Positions 3,246 to 20,928 of a stretch of 24,847 nt of DNA are shown piece after piece (the stretch's first letter is position 1; every line of letters begins with the position of its first letter). The position numbers were made by a program, and so were the translations under genes. The notes beneath the pieces are model-generated. The model was not told where the DNA came from and did not search any database. It was given only the letters and a program-made list of their open reading frames with translations. Source of the DNA: a virus; the IMG/VR virus record IMGVR_UViG_3300031772_000267, positions 1 through 24,847 of that record; one strand, given 5' to 3'.

Positions 3246-3451
3246 TGGTGCCCGAAAATCCTAACGTAGTTCTCATCGAACTTCTTCTTGTCGATATGTC
3301 GGAACCGGTCGCCCTTGCCGGCGACTCCTCGTTTCGCTCTCGGTAGTGTCACGCCGTCCCGGTCGCAGACGCCCCGCTCGCGGGCCTCGACGATCTTCGC
3401 CTTGATAATTTCCTCGTTCTTGAATGTTCTTTCAGCAACGTACATAGTCAT
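3242..3451 (-). CDS. Small basic phage protein after terL
   Basis: A 69-residue protein whose end, GDRFRHIDKKKFDENYVRIFG, is a recurring pattern in tiny phage genes between the large terminase and portal. Its start region lies inside the last 20 nt of terL in another frame. Two in-frame ATGs (3451 and 3445) are possible and neither has a clear ribosome site, so coupling to terL translation is likely. Its stop overlaps the GNAT start. The function is unknown. Confidence 0.68.
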   Translation of the reverse strand: MTMYVAERTFKNEEIIKAKIVEARERGVCDRDGVTLPRAKRGVAGKGDRFRHIDKKKFDENYVRIFGHQ

Positions 3452-5063
3452 TCTTCGCGTGGCTTGACCGCGGCCGAGTCCACTCCCGCGCCATCGGCGC
3501 CGTTATTCTCGATGCCGCCAATAAAAAAAAGTTGATTGCATTACGGTAATGGTCATTCGTGCCCCGATAGCGCCGAATCAGTCCCCCTTGTCTCTTGTCT
3601 CGCTCTTCAATACACACGGGGTCAGTCACCTGTCTTACGAATTCGGAAATCTCCGGCGATTTTCTCGGTATTAGGATACGATTCTCAGAGAAGAGTTTCC
3701 CGCTCGCATCGAAAATCTCCGTCCGGTTCACTTTAACCAAACCCGTTTTATCATTGAACATCACGCCCACGGGACTCGATTCGCTATATTCGAGTAGATG
3801 AATCTTGTACTTCTCGTCTCTCTGAAAATCCCTGGCGGCATCCGCGTTGGGGCGCAAATCCACCACGGCCAACTTCACATTAAACCGTCTGGCCAGGTCG
3901 TGAATCTCTTCCCACTTTGAGACATGCGCCACCCTAAGAATCTTGAATGTTTCCTCTTTTCCTTCACGACCTCCCTTACGCCCCGTCTTAATGCCGATGA
4001 CAAGGTGTTTTATGTCCCCCTGGTCAACACCCATAATGCACGGGCCCTCGCTGGAATCCTCCTGGTTGTAGTCCCCACAGCAAGACAAAACCTGCATGTG
4101 AGTCAACTGGTCTTCTGAGGAAATATACGGCATACCCAAATTGATTCGGCACACATCGCCTATATTATCCTGGGGGGGATAACGATACTTCTGAAGAATC
4201 TTTGCTGGATCGCTGTATGGAATAATCAACTGTGACCATCGCCAACCGTGCATCGTATTGCTGTTCGCTGGAACATCTGGCTTCCAGGTTCCTGTCTGAT
4301 TGGTTATTTGGGCCCCGCACCGCCGACAACCTAAATACCCCGTCCCATCCGGTCGAATTCTAATGAACGACGGATTATCAAAGAACTCTTTTTCCGCACA
4401 AGTCTCCGTCCCACATTTGACGCATGTCATCCACCAGTGCCTCTGGTCGGATTCCTGGAAAAAAGCGTCTATGCCTTTGCGGGGAACCCCTGGATTGCCA
4501 ATGTATATCTCATCTTTAATCTCCGAAGCATCCATTCGCCCTATCGCCTTTGCAATAGTGTCCGAATCCATCAAATCAACTTCGTCGAAGACGGTTGCAT
4601 CCACGCTGATAGCCTTCAACTGCGTCGATTCCTGGTATCCAACATCCAACTTCTCGCTCAAGTTGCCGCCGCGAAGGTATAAATTCCCGCCATTCACCTT
4701 CTTCAAACCGGCGGTGTTTGTGTCTTCTATGTACCGCCCTATCGCGCTGGGATTATCCTGAATCAAGGGCGAAAATCGACTTTTGGAATACTCCTGAACC
4801 GATGCCGTCGTTGGAAATAAATATAACACCCCCTGCGGGTAACGCTTGAAAATCATCCCGTGAAGCATTATCAGCATTACGATTAAACTCGCCCCGCCCT
4901 GCGTCCCCTTCATCATACACTTACGCGAAAACCTATCCTGCATCGGTTCGAGTAGGTACTCTCGACCCTTAAACGTGAAGACCCCCTTCTGCAACTTGAT
5001 CTGGCGAAGGTTCGCCCAGTACGCCGCGTCAACACTCGCTATGTCCTCTACCCCTATTACCAT
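3432..5063 (-). CDS. terL: Terminase large subunit (GpA-like packaging motor)
   Basis: A 543-residue ATPase/nuclease that pumps DNA into the procapsid and cuts it. Visible parts: an atypical Walker A KGTQGGAS (about 52-59), Walker B VFDEVD (about 159-163), a zinc ribbon with CVKC (about 214-217) and CRRC (about 246-249), then an RNase-H-type nuclease beginning IMGVDQGD with its first Asp near 347. These features fit the GpA-like terminase class. I use the ATG at 5063, preceded by AAGGG: the longer open frame upstream is only an out-of-frame reading of the Ser/Thr repeat gene. Only 7 nt separate it from that gene. Confidence 0.9.
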   Translation of the reverse strand: MVIGVEDIASVDAAYWANLRQIKLQKGVFTFKGREYLLEPMQDRFSRKCMMKGTQGGASLIVMLIMLHGMIFKRYPQGVLYLFPTTASVQEYSKSRFSPLIQDNPSAIGRYIEDTNTAGLKKVNGGNLYLRGGNLSEKLDVGYQESTQLKAISVDATVFDEVDLMDSDTIAKAIGRMDASEIKDEIYIGNPGVPRKGIDAFFQESDQRHWWMTCVKCGTETCAEKEFFDNPSFIRIRPDGTGYLGCRRCGAQITNQTGTWKPDVPANSNTMHGWRWSQLIIPYSDPAKILQKYRYPPQDNIGDVCRINLGMPYISSEDQLTHMQVLSCCGDYNQEDSSEGPCIMGVDQGDIKHLVIGIKTGRKGGREGKEETFKILRVAHVSKWEEIHDLARRFNVKLAVVDLRPNADAARDFQRDEKYKIHLLEYSESSPVGVMFNDKTGLVKVNRTEIFDASGKLFSENRILIPRKSPEISEFVRQVTDPVCIEERDKRQGGLIRRYRGTNDHYRNAINFFLLAASRITAPMAREWTRPRSSHAKNDYVRC

Positions 5064-5070
5064 AAGACCC

Positions 5071-5925
5071 TTAATCCGTTGTCGTGCTTGAACTCGAACT
5101 CGTCGAAGATGAAGAACTACTCGTCGAACTACTGCTGCTCGTCGATGAGGTTGATGTACTGGAACTCGTAGAGCTTGATGTGCTCGTGCTGCTGCTCGTC
5201 GACGTGCTCGATGAGGTACTTGTAGAACTTGAGGTCGAGGAAGATGTGCTCGAAGAAGAACTCGTGCTGCTGCTTGAGCTTGTCGATGTGCTACTACTCG
5301 TCGAACTTGAACTGCTGCTCGTACTGCTCGACGAGGAACTGCTCGATGATGTACTGGACGAAGAACTCGTACTGCTACTCGTACTGCTACTACTCGAACT
5401 CGTCGTGCTCGTCCGAATATCCCCACAGTAAACGCAAGCATTCCGAACTATCGGTACGTACTGTATGTACAACGTACCCTTCCCACTCGAAAGATCATCA
5501 TTGCTGAACGCCACGTCTATCGACCCCTCCGGTACTATGATCCCACGACCCGTCGCCAAACCCCGCCCTACCGCACATACCGGCAACAACGTACCCGTCG
5601 CCGCCGCTATTATCGCCGTCCCATCGCACTCCGACCAAAACCAATCCCCTATCGCCGCCGCCTGAATGTTAACACCATCCCCTATCACCGTGTGCAAACC
5701 CAACATCGGACTCGCTACAAAAAACATGTTGCACGCACTGTCACTCACCGCCTCCGTTATCTGCATAAACAGACCCGTCACGCATATCGGACCCCCTACC
5801 ACCTCAAATACGTCACTTACACGACCGTTCTGCAATACTATCCCCGCCCTGTACGTCATGCTCTCCCTAAACTCCGTCCGCAACGCACTCGTTACATGAA
5901 CCCCTGAATAACTTTCCCGTGACAT
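5071..5925 (-). CDS. Predicted virion protein with 113-residue Ser/Thr-only tail
   Basis: A 284-residue protein between the terminase subunits. Residues 1-171 form an ordinary folded-looking part: MSRESYSGVH, many beta-forming stretches such as GRVSDVFEVVGGPICVTGLF, and a cysteine pair CVYC just before the tail. Residues about 172-284 are almost solely Ser and Thr, ending TTTD. All six serine codons are used, so the composition appears to be held at the protein level rather than by a fresh DNA repeat. I do not recognise the folded part. It could be a capsid decoration or fibre-like protein with a disordered, possibly glycosylated or adhesive, extension (inference). Confidence 0.75.
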   Translation of the reverse strand: MSRESYSGVHVTSALRTEFRESMTYRAGIVLQNGRVSDVFEVVGGPICVTGLFMQITEAVSDSACNMFFVASPMLGLHTVIGDGVNIQAAAIGDWFWSECDGTAIIAAATGTLLPVCAVGRGLATGRGIIVPEGSIDVAFSNDDLSSGKGTLYIQYVPIVRNACVYCGDIRTSTTSSSSSSTSSSTSSSSSTSSSSSSSSSTSSSSSSTSSSTSTSSSSSTSSSSSTSSSTSSSTSTSSSTSTSSSTSTSSSTSSSTSTSSTSSSSSTSSSSSSTSSSSSTTTD

Positions 5926-9047: not shown

Positions 9048-9734
9048 ATGACTAAGCAAGCGATTCTCTATGCTCGGTTCAGCCCGCGACCTAATGCCCA
9101 GGAGTGCGATGGCATCGAGCGCCAATTCGAGCTATGCCGCAAACATTGCGAAATCCACAACCTGACGGTCGCCGGTGCGTACTCGGACGCTGGCATATCA
9201 GGCAAGACCATCAAGGATAGGCCGGGACTCCAGGCGGCGATTGAGCACGTCTGCAAAGTCAAGGGTGTGCTCGTCGCCTACAGTCTGAGCCGGATTGCCC
9301 GGTCAATTCAGGATGCGATCCGCATATCGCTGGAGCTTCGCAAGCAGAAGGCCGACTTGTGCATCATTCAGGCCAATTTGGACACTTCGACGCCGGGGGG
9401 CCGGGTGGTCTATCATATCTTCGCTGCTCTGGCCGAATTTGAGCGGGAAATGATTTCGGAGCGCACGAAAGTGGCGATGTTGGAGTACCAGGCCAACGGC
9501 AAGCGGGTGTCTAATTTGCCGCCTTATGGCTGGCAGATAGACCCCCAGGACTCCAAAAGGCTTGTAAAACAACACGATGAGCAACTGATAATCGAATTGA
9601 TACTTGCATGGCGGTCGGAAGGCTTAGGATACCGCAAAATTGCAAGACGGCTTCAGGATCAAGGCTTGAAGCCGCGAACAGGGGTATCTTGGCATCACGC
9701 TCAAATTCGGCGGATTATTGCAAGGGCAAAATGA
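9048..9734 (+). CDS. Small serine recombinase (resolvase/invertase family)
   Basis: A 228-residue protein. The catalytic N-terminal domain begins AILYARFSPR, with the nucleophile Ser in the Y-A-R-F-S motif. It contains GISGKTIKDRPGLQAA, the arginine motif YSLSRIARS and the helix EFEREMISERTKVAM, as in resolvases. The C-terminal part, about residues 150-228, has a helix-turn-helix segment, YRKIARRLQDQG, and WHHAQIRRII. It lacks the long zinc and coiled-coil parts of large integrases. I use the ATG at 9048, 8 nt after AGGAG, not the TTG 6 nt earlier. Likely roles are multimer resolution, DNA inversion or integration; no crossover site was identified. Confidence 0.85.
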   Translation: MTKQAILYARFSPRPNAQECDGIERQFELCRKHCEIHNLTVAGAYSDAGISGKTIKDRPGLQAAIEHVCKVKGVLVAYSLSRIARSIQDAIRISLELRKQKADLCIIQANLDTSTPGGRVVYHIFAALAEFEREMISERTKVAMLEYQANGKRVSNLPPYGWQIDPQDSKRLVKQHDEQLIIELILAWRSEGLGYRKIARRLQDQGLKPRTGVSWHHAQIRRIIARAK

Positions 9735-9754
9735 AAAATTGCATTGGTTTGTTT

Positions 9755-10043
9755 TGCCACTGCTCTGCGGTGCTATGCGCCGCCCTTGCCGTGCCGGGCG
9801 TCGCATCGCCTTTGCCCTGCCTGGCGGCACTTAGCCTTTGCTCCGCAAAGATAGGCTGTGCTATGCCTTTGCCGCGCCTCGCAGCGCCTTTGCCGCGCCA
9901 TACCATGCAGTGCCAAGTGCCGCAGTGCCGCAGCGCCGAGCAACGCATCGCCTTTGCCGCGCGCTGCCGGGCAGCGCCTTTGCCGTGCCATACCACGCAG
10001 CGCCGAGCAACGCGTCGCCATTGCCGCGCCCCGCCATGCCCTG
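9755..10043. repeat. GCC-rich repeat with 5-nt period
   Basis: This 290-nt stretch between the recombinase and the leftward gene at 10044 is made mostly of 5-mers NNGCC (read on minus, GGCNN), with occasional slips to 6 or 7 nt. Larger near-copies also occur: a block around 9931-9963 recurs around 9997-10029 with two differences. The low complexity leaves several long open frames on both strands, which I regard as by-products. It sits directly after the stop of the 192-aa protein. Its role is unknown; no terminator is evident. Confidence 0.7.
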
Positions 10044-10622
10044 CTATTGCACCTCATAACTGAATCGGCCATAAGAGGCATTTCTCCACTGGCCCAAACC
10101 GCGCAAAGCGCCGTAATCCAGCCATTGAACTATTGGCTTTTCAAGCTTCGGGTCGAGGAGAATTATCTCAAACTCGATGTTGCTGCCTGGGGCTATCATT
10201 TCGGAACGGGACAAGGCTATTCGCTCGCCCTGGGCCGTCTGTGCCCGTAGTGGCCGCTCAAGAATCTCCATTTTGCCGATGACGAAAATCGGTATTTGGC
10301 GCGGCTTAATGAATATCAAGCCGTCCACGACCTTTTTGTATGCCTTCAACTGGGCTGACTTAGGCATAACGCGATTCAGCATAGAGCAGGCGTCCTTGAA
10401 AAACCCTTTAATCTGGTAGTCCCAGAGATGCGGCTTGCCGTCTGGAGTTTTGGCAAAAATAGTGCTCTGTTTTTCAAGGGCCTCTTCGTTAGTGGCGAGG
10501 GTTGCGTTTTCGTCCTCGGCAATTCCGTCTGGCCGATTCGATAAGACGAACTCGGTCGCAACCTCTTTGTTTCCTGGGCACGTGCCCAACAATGGCTCTG
10601 TGAATGTCAATTTTACTTTCAT
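10044..10622 (-). CDS. Conserved phage protein with RAMP-like glycine loop
   Basis: A 192-residue protein starting MKVKLTFTEPLLGTCPGN, with AGGAG 7 nt upstream. Segments LWDYQIKGFFKDACSML, KAYKKVVDGLIFIKPR and RPLRAQTAQGERIALSRSE are typical of a protein widespread in phages of many hosts, near recombination genes, with no proven role. The end, LDYGALRGLGQWRNASYGRF, resembles the glycine-rich loop of RAMP-fold (ferredoxin-like) RNA-binding proteins of CRISPR effectors. That resemblance is my inference. A 14-bp palindrome lies near the start codon (10575-10588). Downstream is the GCC repeat. Confidence 0.75.
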   Translation of the reverse strand: MKVKLTFTEPLLGTCPGNKEVATEFVLSNRPDGIAEDENATLATNEEALEKQSTIFAKTPDGKPHLWDYQIKGFFKDACSMLNRVMPKSAQLKAYKKVVDGLIFIKPRQIPIFVIGKMEILERPLRAQTAQGERIALSRSEMIAPGSNIEFEIILLDPKLEKPIVQWLDYGALRGLGQWRNASYGRFSYEVQ

Positions 10623-11392: not shown

Positions 11393-11423
11393 TTTATTCT
11401 CCTTTCAAAAAGGCCCGGCGGGT
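11393..11423 (-). repeat. 31-nt leader repeat, copy A
   Basis: On the minus strand this is ACCCGCCGGG followed by CCTTTTTGAAAGGAGAATAAA, ending 1 nt before the ATG at 11391. It is identical over 31 nt to the copy at 20371-20401 on the plus strand. The GC block can pair with CCCGGCGG just upstream (near 11445), making a stem, U-run and ribosome site. Confidence 0.75.
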
Positions 11424-11484
11424 CGGTCTATTCGGCTTTCGCCGCCGCCGGGTTGATTCAATACGTTAGGAAAAACCAAATCTT

Positions 11485-11730
11485 TCATAGTTCGTACCAC
11501 AGACTCAAAATCAGCAATCCTGCTATCGCAAGACCCGCCAGCACAAATACCACCTTCTGCCACAATGGAGTTTTCATCTCAACCACCTTTCCCTTGCAAC
11601 CTGGATCGGCCAGAGGCAAATTCGGGTGCGCACGCTTATAACCCGGCGGCGGGTAGTGGTAAACCACTTCCCGGTCGAATCTCCGACCACAACTCAAACA
11701 TTGCCGACGCTCTTTTTTTGATTTTTGCAT
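11485..11730 (-). CDS. Zinc-ribbon protein with C-terminal membrane helix
   Basis: An 81-residue protein. The N-terminal half has CLSCGRRFDREVVYHYPPPG and a later PGCKGKVV, a possible knuckle-type metal site. The last 25 residues (VVFVLAGLAIAGLLILSLW) form one membrane helix. The start lies in an A-rich tract without a proper ribosome site. An internal ATG at 11577 preceded by AAGGTGG could produce a 30-residue membrane peptide on its own. Neither family nor function is recognised. Confidence 0.55.
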   Translation of the reverse strand: MQKSKKERRQCLSCGRRFDREVVYHYPPPGYKRAHPNLPLADPGCKGKVVEMKTPLWQKVVFVLAGLAIAGLLILSLWYEL

Positions 11731-11813
11731 TTTTTTTGTTTTTTTTCTTCTTTTTCTTCTTTCTCTCTCTAGTACTAGAGAAACCTCTCATTCCCTCCCT
11801 TCTTTTGTAATTG
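11708..11813. other. Polypyrimidine tract with 16-bp palindrome
   Basis: The plus strand is almost only C and T over about 100 nt, with T-runs of 8 (11730-11737 and 11739-11746). It is broken by a perfect palindrome TCTCTAGTACTAGAGA (11766-11781). On minus RNA it is a purine leader for the zinc-ribbon gene. Confidence 0.55.
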
Positions 11814-12011
11814 AAATTCTAAGCGCAAACCAACCCCATCAGGTTGGTCTGCGCTCAGCGCAATCCATATCGAGCGTTTCACTATTTTTGGCAGTTGTTT
11901 TTTAATGTGGACAACCGGTAGCCCCGATCTCCGTCCGAATGTGTTGTGACAACCGCTTTTGGCGGCTTCTTCGGGATGCGCCGGGTTGGGGAGGCGCACC
12001 TGTAACCACAA
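11775..12011 (-). CDS. Doubtful 78-aa open frame
   Basis: An open frame with a TTG start and no ribosome site. The C-terminal part (PKIVKRSIWIALSADQPDG, then RLEFQLQKKG) has a protein-like mix of residues, while the N-terminal part is equally open in other frames. It contains a 14-bp hairpin (11821-11854) that pairs fully only in minus-strand RNA because one pair is G-U. If real, it would be the first gene of the leftward cluster. I recognise no family; it may be a remnant or a non-coding leader. Confidence 0.3.
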   Translation of the reverse strand: MWLQVRLPNPAHPEEAAKSGCHNTFGRRSGLPVVHIKKQLPKIVKRSIWIALSADQPDGVGLRLEFQLQKKGGNERFL

Positions 12012-12027
12012 AACTATGCTCTTCTCT

Positions 12028-12285
12028 TAATCCTCAGAGTTCGGATACGTCGATGCCCTGGCAAAAGCCGGACGGTCGGCGCGCCGCCATAACAAGTTGT
12101 ATATCTTGCCGAGTTGCCCGAAGGCTTACGGTCTGAGAACAAACTGGAGAGGGTCGTCGCAGAATTAGGGACGACTTGGAGGAGTGTCTGGCTGCGACGA
12201 CCCTTGCGGATGAAAACTTGCGCGTAAAAGAAGCCGGCCCGCTGTTGATTTCAGCCAACGGCGAGCCGGTCATCTGATAAGCAAA
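12028..12285 (+). pseudogene. Frameshifted remnant, possibly a P27-type small terminase
   Basis: Three plus-strand frames join into one plausible protein: KLYILPSCPKAYG (up to about 12131), then SENKLERVVAELG (12132-12170), then RDDLEECLAATTLADENL and KEAGPLLISANGEPVI before TGA at 12283-12285. Each join is a shift of one base. The order P-x-C-P...W/L-x-R-V-V-A-E-L...D-L...A...KEAGP-x-x-x-x-x-x-G resembles P27-family phage small terminase subunits lacking their start and end. A perfect 12-bp inverted repeat (12151-12162 with 12192-12203) lies inside. The reading is my inference from pattern; base-calling errors could also explain the shifts. Confidence 0.35.
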
Positions 12286-12337
12286 TTGTATATTAGCTGA
12301 AACCATGTTGAGCAGAATACCAAGTTGCCTCATATCC

Positions 12338-12367
12338 CTGCAAGCAATTTCTGAAAATTTTTTGCAG
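12338..12367. promoter_or_regulatory. 30-nt dyad, possible operator
   Basis: CTGCAA (12338-12343) and TTGCAG (12362-12367) flank an inner pair AATTT and AAATT around CTGA, symmetric throughout. It ends 17 nt before the -35 box at 12385, where a regulator could act on the RNA promoter. Confidence 0.45.
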
Positions 12368-12384
12368 ATTTGTGAAGATTTCTG

Positions 12385-12413
12385 TTGACTGTGCGTTTTT
12401 CCCCGTGTATATT
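12385..12413 (+). promoter_or_regulatory. Strong sigma-70 promoter for the structured RNA
   Basis: TTGACT (12385-12390) and TATATT (12408-12413) are separated by exactly 17 nt; each differs from consensus at one position. Transcription would begin near 12420-12422. No ribosome site or sensible reading frame follows, but RNA hairpins and a terminator do. Confidence 0.75.
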
Positions 12414-12419
12414 GGCCTT

Positions 12420-12612
12420 TTAGTATGAAACACTTACCAGAAAAAATTAGGTCATCGGGTCGATCTCGCCGAGTTTCCCCTTGTTTTTGGCAAACGCCAG
12501 TCCGCTTCAATCCTGATGACCCTGGTAAGTTCAATCCGTGCGAAGCTGACTGTGTGGATAGGGGTCCGAGTTCTGATTATTTCGATTCTCCGGCTCGGAC
12601 CCCGCTTTTTTG
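12420..12612 (+). ncRNA. Candidate structured small RNA of about 190 nt
   Basis: A promoter-to-terminator unit without a credible gene. Near the 5' end ACTTACCAG (12432-12440) pairs perfectly with CTGGTAAGT (12522-12530). After a one-sided bulge of nine nt, AAAAAATTA, a second helix pairs GGTCATCGGG (12450-12459) with CCTGATGACC (12512-12521, one G-U). The helices stack without a gap on the 3' side. Inside is a smaller hairpin, TGGC-AAAC-GCCA (12488-12499). A 30-nt linker leads to the terminator. I find no match to 6S RNA, tmRNA or tRNA layouts. It may be a trans-acting regulator or a leader; it ends well before the next gene (12827). Confidence 0.62.
12561..12611 (+). terminator. Intrinsic terminator of the structured RNA
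   Basis: GGGGTCCGAG (12561-12570) pairs perfectly with CTCGGACCCC (12594-12603) around a 23-nt loop; GC and six T residues follow (12606-12611). It is one of the strongest terminator shapes in the window. Confidence 0.75.
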
Positions 12613-12625
12613 AAAGGGTAGTAGG

Positions 12626-12714
12626 GTTGGGGGCCAACCGTGAACCCTCCGGTACAATTTTAGTTGTTCGCATGGAAAGCCGAACGACGAAGGTAAACCG
12701 GCCCCCAACTTTTT
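12626..12714 (+). ncRNA. Branched RNA fold ending in a U-run
   Basis: GTTGGGGGCC (12626-12635) pairs perfectly with GGCCCCCAAC (12700-12709), followed by five T residues (12710-12714). Enclosed are a short ACCG/CGGT arm (about 12637-12653) and an 8-bp arm GTTGTTCG (12664-12671) with CGAACGAC (12680-12687, one G-U). Together they make a three-way junction with unpaired purine-rich segments. The shape suits a riboswitch-like leader, a processed RNA or a large terminator. It starts 15 nt after the previous terminator and precedes the lipoprotein gene by about 110 nt. Confidence 0.5.
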
Positions 12715-12826
12715 AGAATAGTTGACTCTTATCACTGTGTTCGGGGTGGGTGGCGGATATATGGATGTGTGACACCGCCGGCAAGGACGCCTTTAGCCCG
12801 CCCCTTTGAATTGAAAGGATGATGAA

Positions 12827-12985
12827 ATGAAAATGATTATTTTGGTTGTCGTATTTTTGTGCCTGTTGGCAGGACTTGGTGGATGTGGCGGACAACTGAG
12901 GACGCCGCCCTGGTCTGATGATGAGGTAGAACAAATGGCCTTTGAAAAACAGGCTGGCGTGCCTTTGGCGACGTATAGGTTTTAA
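12827..12985 (+). CDS. Small lipoprotein, 52 aa
   Basis: Starts MKMIILVVVFLCLLAGLGGC: a signal peptide with a lipobox (LGGC, Cys at residue 20), so the mature product would be a lipid-anchored peptide of 33 residues with the sequence GGQLRTPPWSDDEVEQ near its start. GAAAGGA lies 7 nt upstream. Small phage lipoproteins of this size include outer-membrane spanins, but no partner inner-membrane spanin is seen and there is no Pro-rich body typical of Rz1. It might also be an exclusion lipoprotein. The function is open. Confidence 0.62.
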   Translation: MKMIILVVVFLCLLAGLGGCGGQLRTPPWSDDEVEQMAFEKQAGVPLATYRF

Positions 12986-13043
12986 CAAGTCTGGCGGTTG
13001 TGGTGTTGCCGAGCCACAGCAGCAATGGTTCCGGCTGAACCGA

Positions 13044-13065
13044 GCCGCCGGGCTTTTTGAAGGAG
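13044..13065 (+). repeat. Leader element, diverged copy
   Basis: GCCGCCGGGCTTTTTGAAGG plus AG, 4 nt before the ATG at 13070. It shares the GC block, T-run and GAA(A)GGAG order of the 31-nt repeats. CCGGC near 13031 can pair with GCCGG in the block. Confidence 0.55.
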
Positions 13066-13069
13066 CCTT

Positions 13070-13294
13070 ATGAGCGAAGAACCAAAACCATTTCTGCTCG
13101 TCCGGCTTGAGCGGTTGAAAACTCTGGTCGCCGAGCCGACTCGCAAGGGACAACTACCGGAGGCCAGGGTAATCGTCGAGGACTTGATCAAGCGATACAC
13201 TCTTATTTTCGGCATCCGAAAAGAACTGGCGCTGCTGTACGAAACCCAGCATCCAGGAAAGGAGAATGACAATGAAGTTACAGAACTTCATTGA
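13070..13294 (+). CDS. 74-aa helical protein, unrecognised
   Basis: Starts MSEEPKPFLLVRLERLK after the leader element with AAGGAG. The product looks almost fully helical (LKTLVAEPTRKG, then ARVIVEDLIKRYTLIFGIRKELALLYE), a pattern compatible with a small dimeric bundle. There are no cysteines and no membrane segment. Its 3' end overlaps the next gene by 23 nt, with that gene's ribosome site inside it. No family is recognised. Confidence 0.6.
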   Translation: MSEEPKPFLLVRLERLKTLVAEPTRKGQLPEARVIVEDLIKRYTLIFGIRKELALLYETQHPGKENDNEVTELH

Positions 13295-13625
13295 AGCTAA
13301 TCGAGGGCAAGACCTTCACAATGGCCATTATCAATATGACCAAGTGATTATCAATACTCGACAACTCTTCGCAACTGAACCGCATATTATCGAAGTCTGT
13401 CTGTCTATACCTCAATATGACCAAGTGATTATCAATACTCGACAACTCTTCGCAACTGAACCGCATATTATCGAAGTCTGTCTGTCTATACCTGGTTGGT
13501 CTTTTAGACCACGCTTGGATGCTCGCTACTTGGATAATACCGATGGTGAAAACGTCGCCTTCTTTCGTTGGCTTCAGAAGGTCTTTCTACCAGAATTTCA
13601 AACAGCATTGCACAAAGGAGGATAA
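13272..13625 (+). CDS. 117-aa protein with perfect 27-residue tandem duplication
   Basis: Starts MKLQNFIEANRGQ at the ATG 7 nt after AGGAG; an ATG 6 nt earlier is too close to the site. The segment beginning QYDQVIINTRQLFATEP and ending CLSIP occurs twice in a row with no difference, then GWSFRPRLDARYLDN follows. Without one copy the protein would be 90 residues. I do not recognise a family. The identity at DNA level points to a very recent duplication that kept the frame. Confidence 0.6.
   Translation: MKLQNFIEANRGQDLHNGHYQYDQVIINTRQLFATEPHIIEVCLSIPQYDQVIINTRQLFATEPHIIEVCLSIPGWSFRPRLDARYLDNTDGENVAFFRWLQKVFLPEFQTALHKGG
13331..13492 (+). repeat. 81-bp perfect tandem duplication
   Basis: Copy 1 is 13331-13411 and copy 2 is 13412-13492; every base agrees and one further T is shared. 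The flanks differ immediately (A against C before, C against G after). The length is a multiple of three, so the gene stays open. Confidence 0.95.
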
Positions 13626-18230: not shown

Positions 18231-18725
18231 ATGAGACCAACGACCAAAAGAATGCACATCATAGCCATAGACCCTGGATCGGAAAAGTCGGCGTATGTCC
18301 GACTGGTAAATGGCGAATTGACTTCTCATTATATTCTGCCCAACGAGGATGTCTTGAAGGTGCTGGGATGCCCGACGATGGATGCCGATGTTCTGGTAAT
18401 TGAAATGGTCGCCAACTACGGAATGTCCGTCGGGAAAAGCGTCTTTGAAACCTGCGTGTGGATAGGCCGGTTCATGCAAGTCAGTCGATGCCGAACCGAG
18501 CGAATGTATCGTATGGCCGTCAAGATGCACTTGTGCCACGACAGTCGGGCGAAGGATGGCAATATCCGCCAGGCAATAATCGACCGCTACCCGGCGACGG
18601 GCGGCGGTGCCATACCTCAGATAGGAACAAAGAAACGACCAGGACCTCTACATGGCGTCTCGAAAGACGTCTGGAGCGCCCTGGCCCTTGCAATCACTTT
18701 TCAAGACACTCATAAGGAGACGTAA
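18231..18725 (+). CDS. RuvC-like Holliday-junction resolvase
   Basis: A 164-residue protein with an RNase-H-type fold that should cut four-way junctions. The first acidic residue lies in IIAIDPGSEKSAY (about residue 14), the second in VLVIEMVANYG (about 58), and a late acidic residue precedes the final helix in SKDVWSALALAI (about 150). The segment DGNIRQAIIDRYP and GTKKRPGPLHGVSKD is usual for phage members. GAGGAT lies 6 nt before the ATG. With the exonuclease and Bet it completes a recombination set. Confidence 0.8.
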   Translation: MRPTTKRMHIIAIDPGSEKSAYVRLVNGELTSHYILPNEDVLKVLGCPTMDADVLVIEMVANYGMSVGKSVFETCVWIGRFMQVSRCRTERMYRMAVKMHLCHDSRAKDGNIRQAIIDRYPATGGGAIPQIGTKKRPGPLHGVSKDVWSALALAITFQDTHKET

Positions 18726-18727
18726 CA

Positions 18728-19033
18728 ATGGCAAAGAAAAGAACCAAGAAGAACAGATATGTTATCGTAAGAACGTATTCTGCTGGCGTGTTTGCTGGCG
18801 AGTTGGTCAGTCGTAAAGGCAAAGAAACCGTCTTACACAATGCGAGGCGAATTTGGTATTGGGATGGAGCAGCAACGCTTTCCCAACTCGCTATGGAGGG
18901 AACCCAGTCGCCGGACACTTGCAAATTCCCTTGTGCGGTGGATTATGTAACTCTGCTCGAAACGATTGAGGTTCTCAATACTACCCCAAAGGCTCGAATC
19001 TCGATTGAAGGAGTCCCTGTATGGAAAAAATAA
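18728..19033 (+). CDS. Conserved phage protein (DUF6948-like)
   Basis: A 101-residue protein: MAKKRTKKNRYVIVRTYSAG, then FAGELVSRKGKETVLHNARR, IWYWDGAATLSQLAMEG and CKFPCAVDYVTLLETIE. This succession is highly conserved in a small domain of unknown function in phages, and the match by eye is strong. The gene shares an identical 29-nt start region with the gene at 19297. The ribosome site AAGGAG of the next gene lies inside its 3' end, and the two overlap by 13 nt. Confidence 0.78.
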   Translation: MAKKRTKKNRYVIVRTYSAGVFAGELVSRKGKETVLHNARRIWYWDGAATLSQLAMEGTQSPDTCKFPCAVDYVTLLETIEVLNTTPKARISIEGVPVWKK

Positions 19034-19263
19034 CTGATGGCTATGGCGATGGCTCTGGCTATGGCTCTGGCTATGGCCATGGCTCTGGCTATGGCGATGG
19101 CTCTGGCCATGGCGATGGCTATGGCCATGGCTCTGGCTCTGGCTATGGCTATGGCGATGGCGATGGCGACGGCTCTGGCTCTGGCGATGCCTATGCCGAT
19201 GGCGATGGCTCTGGCTCTGGCTCTGGCTATGGCTATGGCGATGGCGATGGCTCTGGCTCTTAA
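19021..19263 (+). CDS. Gly-X repeat protein (GYGDGSG), 80 aa
   Basis: AAGGAG lies 7 nt before the ATG, inside the previous gene. After MEKITDG, every second residue is Gly, alternating with Tyr, Asp, Ser or His. At DNA level this is GGC followed by TAT, GAT, TCT or CAT, a period of 6 nt. Nearly all glycines use GGC, so DNA slippage and protein repetition go together. Such Gly/Tyr/Ser chains are flexible and can be adhesive or phase-separating; no function is known. Because the start is well placed, I regard it as translated. Confidence 0.6.
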   Translation: MEKITDGYGDGSGYGSGYGHGSGYGDGSGHGDGYGHGSGSGYGYGDGDGDGSGSGDAYADGDGSGSGSGYGYGDGDGSGS

Positions 19264-19296
19264 TGAAACCCAAACAAATCATAAGGAGACGTAACA

Positions 19297-19590
19297 ATGG
19301 CAAAGAAGAAAACCAAACCCGCCGAACAAATGGACCTGATTGATGTTCAGCCGCAGAACGTCAAAGCGATTGTAGCAGCAGCACGGCTCTACAAGAAATT
19401 CCAAGTGGCTCGAATAGCGGCTTTGGAAAAAGAAATTGCTCAGAAGCAGGAAATTCTCGCGTTGGTAAAAGAGGCAAAACTGCAACCGTTGGAAGGGGGC
19501 GTGATTAGGTTTGCGTGCGACGGCATGACGATCTCTATCACGCCGCGGGATGAGCTTGTGAAAGTTAAAGAGGAATCCTCAGAAGAATAA
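19297..19590 (+). CDS. 97-aa conserved phage protein, coiled-coil
   Basis: Starts MAKKKTKPAEQMDLIDVQP after AAGGAG with 8-nt spacing. The middle is a helix, KFQVARIAALEKEIAQKQEI, likely to form a coiled coil, followed by a small beta part, GGVIRFACDGMTISITPRDE. Similar proteins appear near annealing-protein genes in phages, with unknown role. The leader and first codons repeat those of the gene at 18728. Confidence 0.68.
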   Translation: MAKKKTKPAEQMDLIDVQPQNVKAIVAAARLYKKFQVARIAALEKEIAQKQEILALVKEAKLQPLEGGVIRFACDGMTISITPRDELVKVKEESSEE

Positions 19591-20257: not shown

Positions 20258-20370
20258 GTTGTGGCTTGCACTCAGGGGCGGATCAGTTACAAGAAGCAGG
20301 CGGCGGCGAGACCGGAAAATCGCCGATGGATTGCAGACCTGCCAATGAAGCATCAAAACGGTCGAATCCT

Positions 20371-20401
20371 ACCCGCCGGGCCTTTTTGAAAGGAGAATAA
20401 A
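20371..20401 (+). repeat. 31-nt leader repeat, copy B
   Basis: Identical over 31 nt to the minus-strand copy at 11393-11423. It ends directly before the ATG at 20402. GGCGGCGGCG at 20299-20308 could pair with the CCGCC in the block, giving a loop of about 60 nt. Confidence 0.75.
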
Positions 20402-20554: not shown

Positions 20555-20664
20555 CAGCCGGCGGCGGCGTGTCCGTACTTAAAAGGGCGGTGCAAGAAGA
20601 CGCGAGGCCGTAAGCGGTAATCGGGATAGTGATATCCAGGTATAAGTGGCGAAACATACGCCTG

Positions 20665-20688
20665 CCCGCCGGGCTGATTTGAAAGGAG
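20665..20688 (+). repeat. Leader element, third copy
   Basis: CCCGCCGGGC, a broken T-run (TGATTT) and GAAAGGAG, 7 nt before the ATG at 20696. CCGGCGGCGG at 20558-20567 can pair with the CCGCCGG block over 7 bp around a 96-nt loop. Confidence 0.6.
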
Positions 20689-20695
20689 AAACCAG

Positions 20696-20812
20696 ATGGC
20701 AAAGACGAAAATAGCCTGGGCGACCGAATCCTGGAATCCGGTCAGATACCTTGACGGTTGGATGTGCTCGAAGAGAAGCCCCGGCTGCTTGAACCATTAT
20801 AATAAATCTTGA
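20696..20812 (+). pseudogene. Truncated N-terminus of a second Gp37/Gp68-like gene
   Basis: A 38-codon frame with a good ribosome site reads MAKTKIAWATESWNPVRYLD, then GWMCSKRSPGCLNHYNKS and stop. It aligns with the first 36 residues of the full gene at 21353 (TKIAWCDVSWNPLRVGNGW, then HCTKVSSGCERCYAE), but the third conserved cysteine has become His and the rest is gone. The break coincides with the start of the HNH endonuclease unit: its -35 box overlaps this stop codon. It is best explained as a broken paralogue left by insertion or recombination. Confidence 0.65.
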
Positions 20813-20836
20813 CAATGACAAATATAGGATTACAAT
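20809..20836 (+). promoter_or_regulatory. Sigma-70 promoter for the HNH gene
   Basis: TTGACA (20809-20814) is followed after 16 nt by TACAAT (20831-20836), one mismatch from the consensus -10. It lies 93 nt before the HNH start codon. A private promoter is common for mobile endonuclease genes. Confidence 0.55.
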
Positions 20837-20928
20837 TATGTGCGGATAGGTTCGCAACCGAAAAGTTGGACATCCTGACCAATCTGCCGCACATTTTATT
20901 GTCAGGAACTATTACAGGAGATAGTCAA

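Follow-up and report, generated by a model that had tools for sequence, protein, structure and literature searches.

A predicted termination-control leader RNA ahead of the putative early operon of a phage with a probable planctomycete host

Leaders that control termination are well known in enterobacterial phages. The early and late leaders of phage lambda are promoter-leader-terminator units ahead of operons. The put RNAs of phage HK022, about 70 nt in length with two adjacent stem-loops, contact the zinc-binding domain of the RNA polymerase beta' subunit and suppress termination. To our knowledge, almost nothing is known about such leaders in planctomycete phages. In phage HK022, putL is a structured RNA that follows the early promoter PL and lies upstream of terminators (PMC9378689). 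IsrK of the Salmonella prophage Gifsy-1 is one RNA that is both a terminated sRNA and a leader that is read through into phage genes (PMC4825925).

The DNA analysed here (the window) is the linear IMG/VR virus record IMGVR_UViG_3300031772_000267 with 24,847 bases. Its left part carries the genes for a head-tail connector (956–2602) and the large terminase TerL (3432–5441), both on the minus strand. The rightward block on the plus strand starts with a predicted small lipoprotein of 52 aa without family match (12827–12985) and continues with a glycosyltransferase (from 14313), a RecE-like gene (from 15337) and RecT (from 16292). A Holliday-junction resolvase (from 18231), an HNH gene, a DUF5131 protein and a DNA methylase are present on the plus strand in the right part. 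We regard the source as a tailed phage, with the rightward block as its putative early, recombination operon. Among cellular sequences, TerL had its closest match (41% identity) in Sedimentisphaerales, which makes a planctomycete of this kind the probable host. None of the proteins of the window was recognised as an antitermination factor. Some peculiarities of the gene regions were also seen. A serine recombinase of 228 aa (9048–9734, plus strand) stops early inside its Recombinase domain and is possibly truncated, and gene 13266–13625 contains an exact 82-bp tandem duplication (13331–13493). An 80-aa (Gly-X)n frame built of GGCNNN repeats (19021–19263, plus strand) showed a fold z of -10; it is part of a stretch that the close relative L002 lacks and that has direct repeats of 38 bp on both sides (18710–18747 and 19279–19316).

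The leftward genes end near 11,730 and the rightward genes begin at 12,827. In the gene-free gap of about 1.1 kb between them, the list of open reading frames, Pfam and PHROGs revealed no credible gene. Positions 12420–12612 (plus strand) inside this gap are predicted to specify a non-coding leader RNA or sRNA of about 190 nt. Like the leaders of lambda and HK022, this locus combines a strong promoter, an untranslated RNA in the range of 70–200 nt and a candidate terminator before an operon. Unlike them, this predicted unit has no recognisable antitermination protein or site, and its sequence and fold are unrelated. As with put in HK022, the RNA comes directly behind an early promoter, and terminator-like hairpins follow it; its 99-nt single branched stem differs from put in size and shape, and the resemblance is in position only. 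With IsrK it would share the short, terminator-ended RNA and a read-through into downstream phage genes, whereas here the short RNA showed no complementarity to the leader sequence that follows it.

A near-consensus sigma-70 promoter with 17-nt spacing had been proposed by the sequence-only reading, and we found it to be present (TTGACT-N17-TATATT, 12385–12390 and 12408–12413, plus strand), with a start point expected near 12420. Its 14.5 bits were the highest score at any position of the window, on either strand, under a sigma-70 matrix from E. coli, here applied to a phage whose host is probably a planctomycete. After shuffling, the non-coding stretch 11735–12826 never reached this score (0 of 500), and the whole window did so in 16 of 200 cases. 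The promoter is above chance for its non-coding stretch, and such a match somewhere in 25 kb is not extraordinary. The second-best promoter of the window runs straight into an int-alpA RNA (Rfam RF02996), upstream of the HNH gene; promoter and RNA together span 20809–20907 on the plus strand, and the RNA itself (20839–20907) scored 49.3 bits. Like our candidate, int-alpA is structured, directly follows one of the two best promoters and precedes a phage gene. It differs in size and fold, and 12420–12612 had no family match. Upstream of the best promoter, a 30-nt imperfect dyad (12338–12367; 11 of 15 half-positions match) does exist, and only 0.3% of mononucleotide shuffles were equally good. 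It had been placed just upstream of the -35 box, but the real distance is 17 nt. The dyad is located between two divergent promoters, and its left arm contains the -35 box TTGCAG (12343–12338) of a weak leftward promoter candidate (TTGCAG-N18-TATTCT, 12314–12343, minus strand, 8.4 bits).

The predicted fold of the RNA agreed with what had been described from the letters, as a 9-bp and a 10-bp helix, the bulge, an inner hairpin and a linker were all recovered. The main stem (12432–12530) consists of helix A (12432–12440/12522–12530, exactly 9 bp), the A-rich 9-nt bulge AAAAAATTA (12441–12449), helix B (12450–12459/12512–12521, 10 bp including one G-U pair) and the inner hairpin (12488–12491/12496–12499, probability 0.83–0.89). 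Helices A and B had a pair probability of about 0.98, which was unchanged by adding downstream RNA. The core 12432–12530 was 4.3 standard deviations more stable than dinucleotide shuffles (z -4.3). For the full 192 nt, the fold z was -2.7 and none of 200 shuffles was as good. In a generic sliding scan with 110-nt windows, which cut the helices, the locus did not stand out. In the full RNA, the main stem and the terminator hairpin (pair probability 0.95) formed together without competition, and no switch between alternative folds was visible in the prediction. A candidate pseudoknot between the loop at about 12499–12508 (CAGTC-C-GCTTC) and the linker at about 12541–12551 (GAAGC-T-GACTG), with 10 of 11 positions paired, gave p values of 0.02–0.04 in one shuffling test and 0.07–0.20 in another; it is at most marginal and not established. 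We also asked whether the A-rich bulge pairs with the loop of the terminator hairpin and rejected this (p 0.010 and 0.144, not significant with one of the two shuffles). Apart from one direct repeat, the RNA showed no sequence likeness above chance to the minus-strand leader described below, to int-alpA or to other hairpins. The exception is a 17-nt repeat (12103–12119/12462–12478, 15 of 17 matching), for which 5 of 200 shuffles were as good and eight tests had been made. Further very stable hairpins were seen in the same non-coding stretch at 12149–12205 and 11819–11858, with stems of 14 bp and 18 bp; the latter hairpin folds better as minus-strand RNA.

The RNA ends in a terminator-like hairpin (12561–12611, plus strand). 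Its 12-bp stem (12561–12572/12592–12603; 10 Watson-Crick and 2 G-U pairs) is followed by GC and by T6 at 12606–12611. The claim of a 10-bp terminator with six U thus holds for the hairpin and the T tract, but the 19-nt loop and the 2-nt spacer make its shape atypical, and because of both features the hairpin may terminate poorly. Its d-score was +8.9 only when the 2-nt spacer was allowed, and -40 otherwise. Three large hairpins lie downstream of this one; in two of these, the stem runs directly into T5. A second terminator-like hairpin (12626–12709, with T5 extending to 12714) has a 10-bp closing stem, a large loop and a d-score of -6.8. A third hairpin (12744–12804, feature 12744–12813) immediately precedes the first rightward gene's ribosome-binding site. 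The same layout of hairpin (12989–13053), T5 and GAAGGAG recurs at 12989–13069 before gene 13070 (d-score +4.0). For hairpins H5–H8 of the series, the plus-strand RNA folds better than the minus-strand RNA. Hairpin-T5-GAAAGGAG modules also precede other genes of this phage (11452–11405 on the minus strand, 12989–13069 and 20368–20401). A repeated module consisting of the hairpin arm CCCGCCGGGC, TTTTTGAAAGGAG and a start codon was noticed at 11393–11426 (minus), 20368–20401 (plus) and 20661–20690 (plus), where it heads unrelated genes of both orientations.

The absence of a gene from the candidate region was borne out. A 62-codon frame (12425–12613) scored -0.25 bits per codon, compared to a coding mean of +0.20 and to -0.17 for shadow frames, and frames through 12420–12612 had no accepted match in Pfam or PHROGs. 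A hit to Ribosomal_L32e on the minus frame 12452–12673 was below threshold (E 0.077) and was dismissed as noise. The Rfam covariance models, including 6S, tmRNA, C4 and int-alpA, gave no match up to E = 10 in 11700–13100, and ARAGORN detected no tRNA or tmRNA, in line with the view that the RNA is none of 6S, tmRNA and tRNA. Homologues of the RNA were found neither in IMG/VR nor in phage records or about 790 genomes, which at the sensitivity used does not imply absence. The DNA-level search of the phage collection returned no usable homologue. Searching IMG/VR via RecE, the glycosyltransferase and TerL yielded only the close relatives L002 and L124, both of which end before the RNA, and the stem-pattern search in IMG/VR returned scattered matches with the partner arms missing. 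A single-sequence covariance model gave nothing usable on the fetched loci, on whole related records or on 397 Phycisphaerae-class genomes, and a DNA search of 392 genomes of the phylum gave two 36-base matches that were judged to be chance.

We consider 12420–12612 to be most likely an untranslated termination-control leader of the rightward early operon, with a probability of about 0.5. Host RNA polymerase would initiate near 12420, and the nascent RNA would form the 19-bp stem interrupted by the A-rich bulge. Many transcripts may stop at the T6 hairpin near 12611 and leave a stable RNA of about 190 nt, while the genes from 12827 on would be expressed by the fraction of polymerase that passes this and the following hairpins. 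The leader would then act as a termination control element, with read-through set by a factor, by its own fold or by incomplete termination. Position argues for this reading: the block of lipoprotein, glycosyltransferase, RecE and RecT begins about 410 nt after the start of the RNA, and the sigma-70 matrix scan detected no usable rightward promoter between 12413 and 12805. Two weaker rightward promoters at 12806–12840 overlap the start of the first gene. With no usable promoter and a series of hairpins, the early genes would need read-through, unless their promoters are of a kind not recognised here. The reading is further supported by the orientation of the best promoter of the window towards the RecE/RecT block, by the better folding of the serial terminator-like hairpins on the plus strand, by stems that persist at all context lengths and by the non-coding score of the frame. 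In addition, a large-loop terminator hairpin comes immediately behind a top-ranking promoter of the stretch in three TerL relatives (L196, L134 and L302), two of which (L196 and L134) have a ribosome-binding site and a gene directly after this hairpin, and the second-best promoter of our window also enters a structured RNA, int-alpA, before the HNH gene. We infer transcription, termination, read-through and any regulation from these sequence elements, from their order and from the lack of a gene and of a strong promoter between the terminator and the operon. Against the leader stand the lack of a homologue in the collections searched, the atypical terminator, the use of an E. coli promoter matrix and the fact that no antitermination protein was recognised.

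The main rival is a separate sRNA. The sequence-only reading had described a stand-alone promoter-RNA-terminator gene, and the unit is indeed complete and matches no Rfam family; a stand-alone status is not supported, however, as the unit is the first element behind the promoter of the rightward early block. A trans-acting sRNA of about 190 nt would pair with host or phage messages or bind a protein via the A-rich bulge. The strong promoter of its own, the stable fold, the U-tract terminator and long unpaired stretches would suit such a role, and the prophage RNA IsrK is a precedent for a terminated leader that is also active in trans (PMC4825925). Yet the longest complementarity to phage transcripts of both strands was 12–15 nt including G-U pairs, which is near chance, no conservation was found, and the downstream genes would be left without another promoter. 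We therefore regard an independent sRNA as doubtful; since IsrK does both, leader and sRNA roles are not mutually exclusive. An antisense or P4-type immunity RNA was rejected for lack of long complementarity: in contrast to the CI/seqA-type RNA of P4, there was no complementarity to its own leader, with no run of at least 12 to the rest of the leader.

It is rather unlikely that the region is a structured, largely passive 5' untranslated region, whose hairpins protect or space the mRNA with no dedicated regulatory role. The similar hairpin-T5-GAAAGGAG modules before other genes would fit such a function, but the 19-bp stem beats its shuffles and sits exactly after the best promoter. By analogy to HK022 put, the nascent RNA might itself bind RNA polymerase, which would then ignore later terminators. 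The setting resembles that of putL (PMC9378689), as a structured RNA directly follows an early promoter and precedes several terminator-like hairpins, in a window with no recognised antitermination protein. The 99-nt branched stem with its 9-nt bulge and subsequent terminator is unlike the two stem-loops of put, and no sequence or family link was found in Rfam, so that we judge such an RNA-only antiterminator to be quite improbable. A translated leader peptide has hardly any probability: the 62-codon frame has its ATG at 12425, six bases into the RNA, and its stop at the end of the U tract, and an ATG at the extreme 5' end also occurs in L196 and L134, but its codon score, like that of shadow frames, led us to reject translation, and it has neither a ribosome-binding site nor a family match.

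On the opposite strand, a divergent leader (12226–12307, minus strand) lies beside the 12385–12413 promoter. It shows a layout a-b-a'-b'-U, in which the RNA 5' end (a) complements sequence a' in the loop of a terminator hairpin (b/b'), and a U tract comes last. This layout was first noticed at the best promoters of terminase relatives. Here, a (12305–12292) pairs with a' (12259–12246) inside the loop of b/b' (12269–12261/12242–12234), and CTTCTTTT follows. The element scored 52, compared to 42.5 for the best result from four shuffled windows, and was the best of its kind in the window (complementarity p < 0.001); its promoter is weak (8.4 bits). No such element was found at the rightward promoter, and the RNA of about 190 nt does not show the layout. 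In L196 (minus strand, 7957–7845), a/a' and b/b' comprise 12 bp each, and the layout is clear in L134 (2024–2120) and L302 (minus strand); complementarity in these three had p values of about 0.014 or less. It is also clear in L128 (minus strand), L138 (5884–5980), L136, L048 and L194. Among 110 elements in the fetched loci, 12 had a promoter of at least 10 bits with a at +1 to +15, compared to 1.4% of random positions, a lead and not a survey, as the loci are not a random phage sample and the scan was designed after the first cases. The sequences of these leaders are unrelated among phages, and those scanned had no Rfam match. It is possible that such pseudoknot-terminator leaders are an undescribed RNA class; a recurring pairing of terminator loop and 5' end would give a concrete, testable one. 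Tentatively, 12226–12612 might be a two-sided RNA switch, in which the pseudoknot of the minus-strand leader and the bulged stem and possible pseudoknot of the plus strand control termination and in this way set leftward relative to rightward expression. The pseudoknot-terminator leader would then be an undescribed class, present again and again at strong promoters across many environmental phages. We hold this to be an unlikely combination. If leader and divergent partner do control termination, RNA-based early control would be extended to a new phage group. By eye, two similar pseudoknot-like elements, whose a/a' arms differ together, flank a Cas7-like gene in L151 (about 950–1100 and 2335–2430).

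The leftward block of the window also encodes a Cas7/Csm3-like (RAMP) protein of 192 aa (10044–10622, minus strand), and IMG/VR contigs contain 56 relatives of this protein. The structure predicted for it (pLDDT 88) matched Cas7/Csm3 over the full length (Foldseek E 1.6e-7) and type VII Cas7 with a Z of 13.3. Beside the gene, a non-coding spacer (9735–10043, minus strand) showed a 5-nt periodicity with z values of 8.1, 4.6 and 3.3 at lags 5, 10 and 15, and 5-nt-periodic stretches were present at 47 of the 56 loci of the relatives but at none of 96 control viral loci. VIPR, described in a 2026 preprint, comprises a phage-encoded RAMP protein and vrRNAs of alternating GGY/NN (PMC13142463). The Cas7-like gene and its periodic spacer are likely a new member of this published system and not a new kind. 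Our candidate shares with vrRNA that it is non-coding, about 100 nt or longer and encoded in the same phage genome; unlike vrRNA, it has no 5-nt periodicity (lag-5 z 0.2) and lacks YNNGG pentanucleotide repeats, and was rejected as a vrRNA on the lag-5 value. In L138, a pseudoknot-terminator leader is located directly before the Cas7-like gene; the minus-strand leader of the window precedes this gene by about 1.6 kb. In L002 (1700–3200), a second GLG...GRF protein is encoded between RecE and RecT and has 5-nt-periodic spacers of the GACCCGAACCGAACGCAA type on both sides; this may be one more VIPR-like locus.
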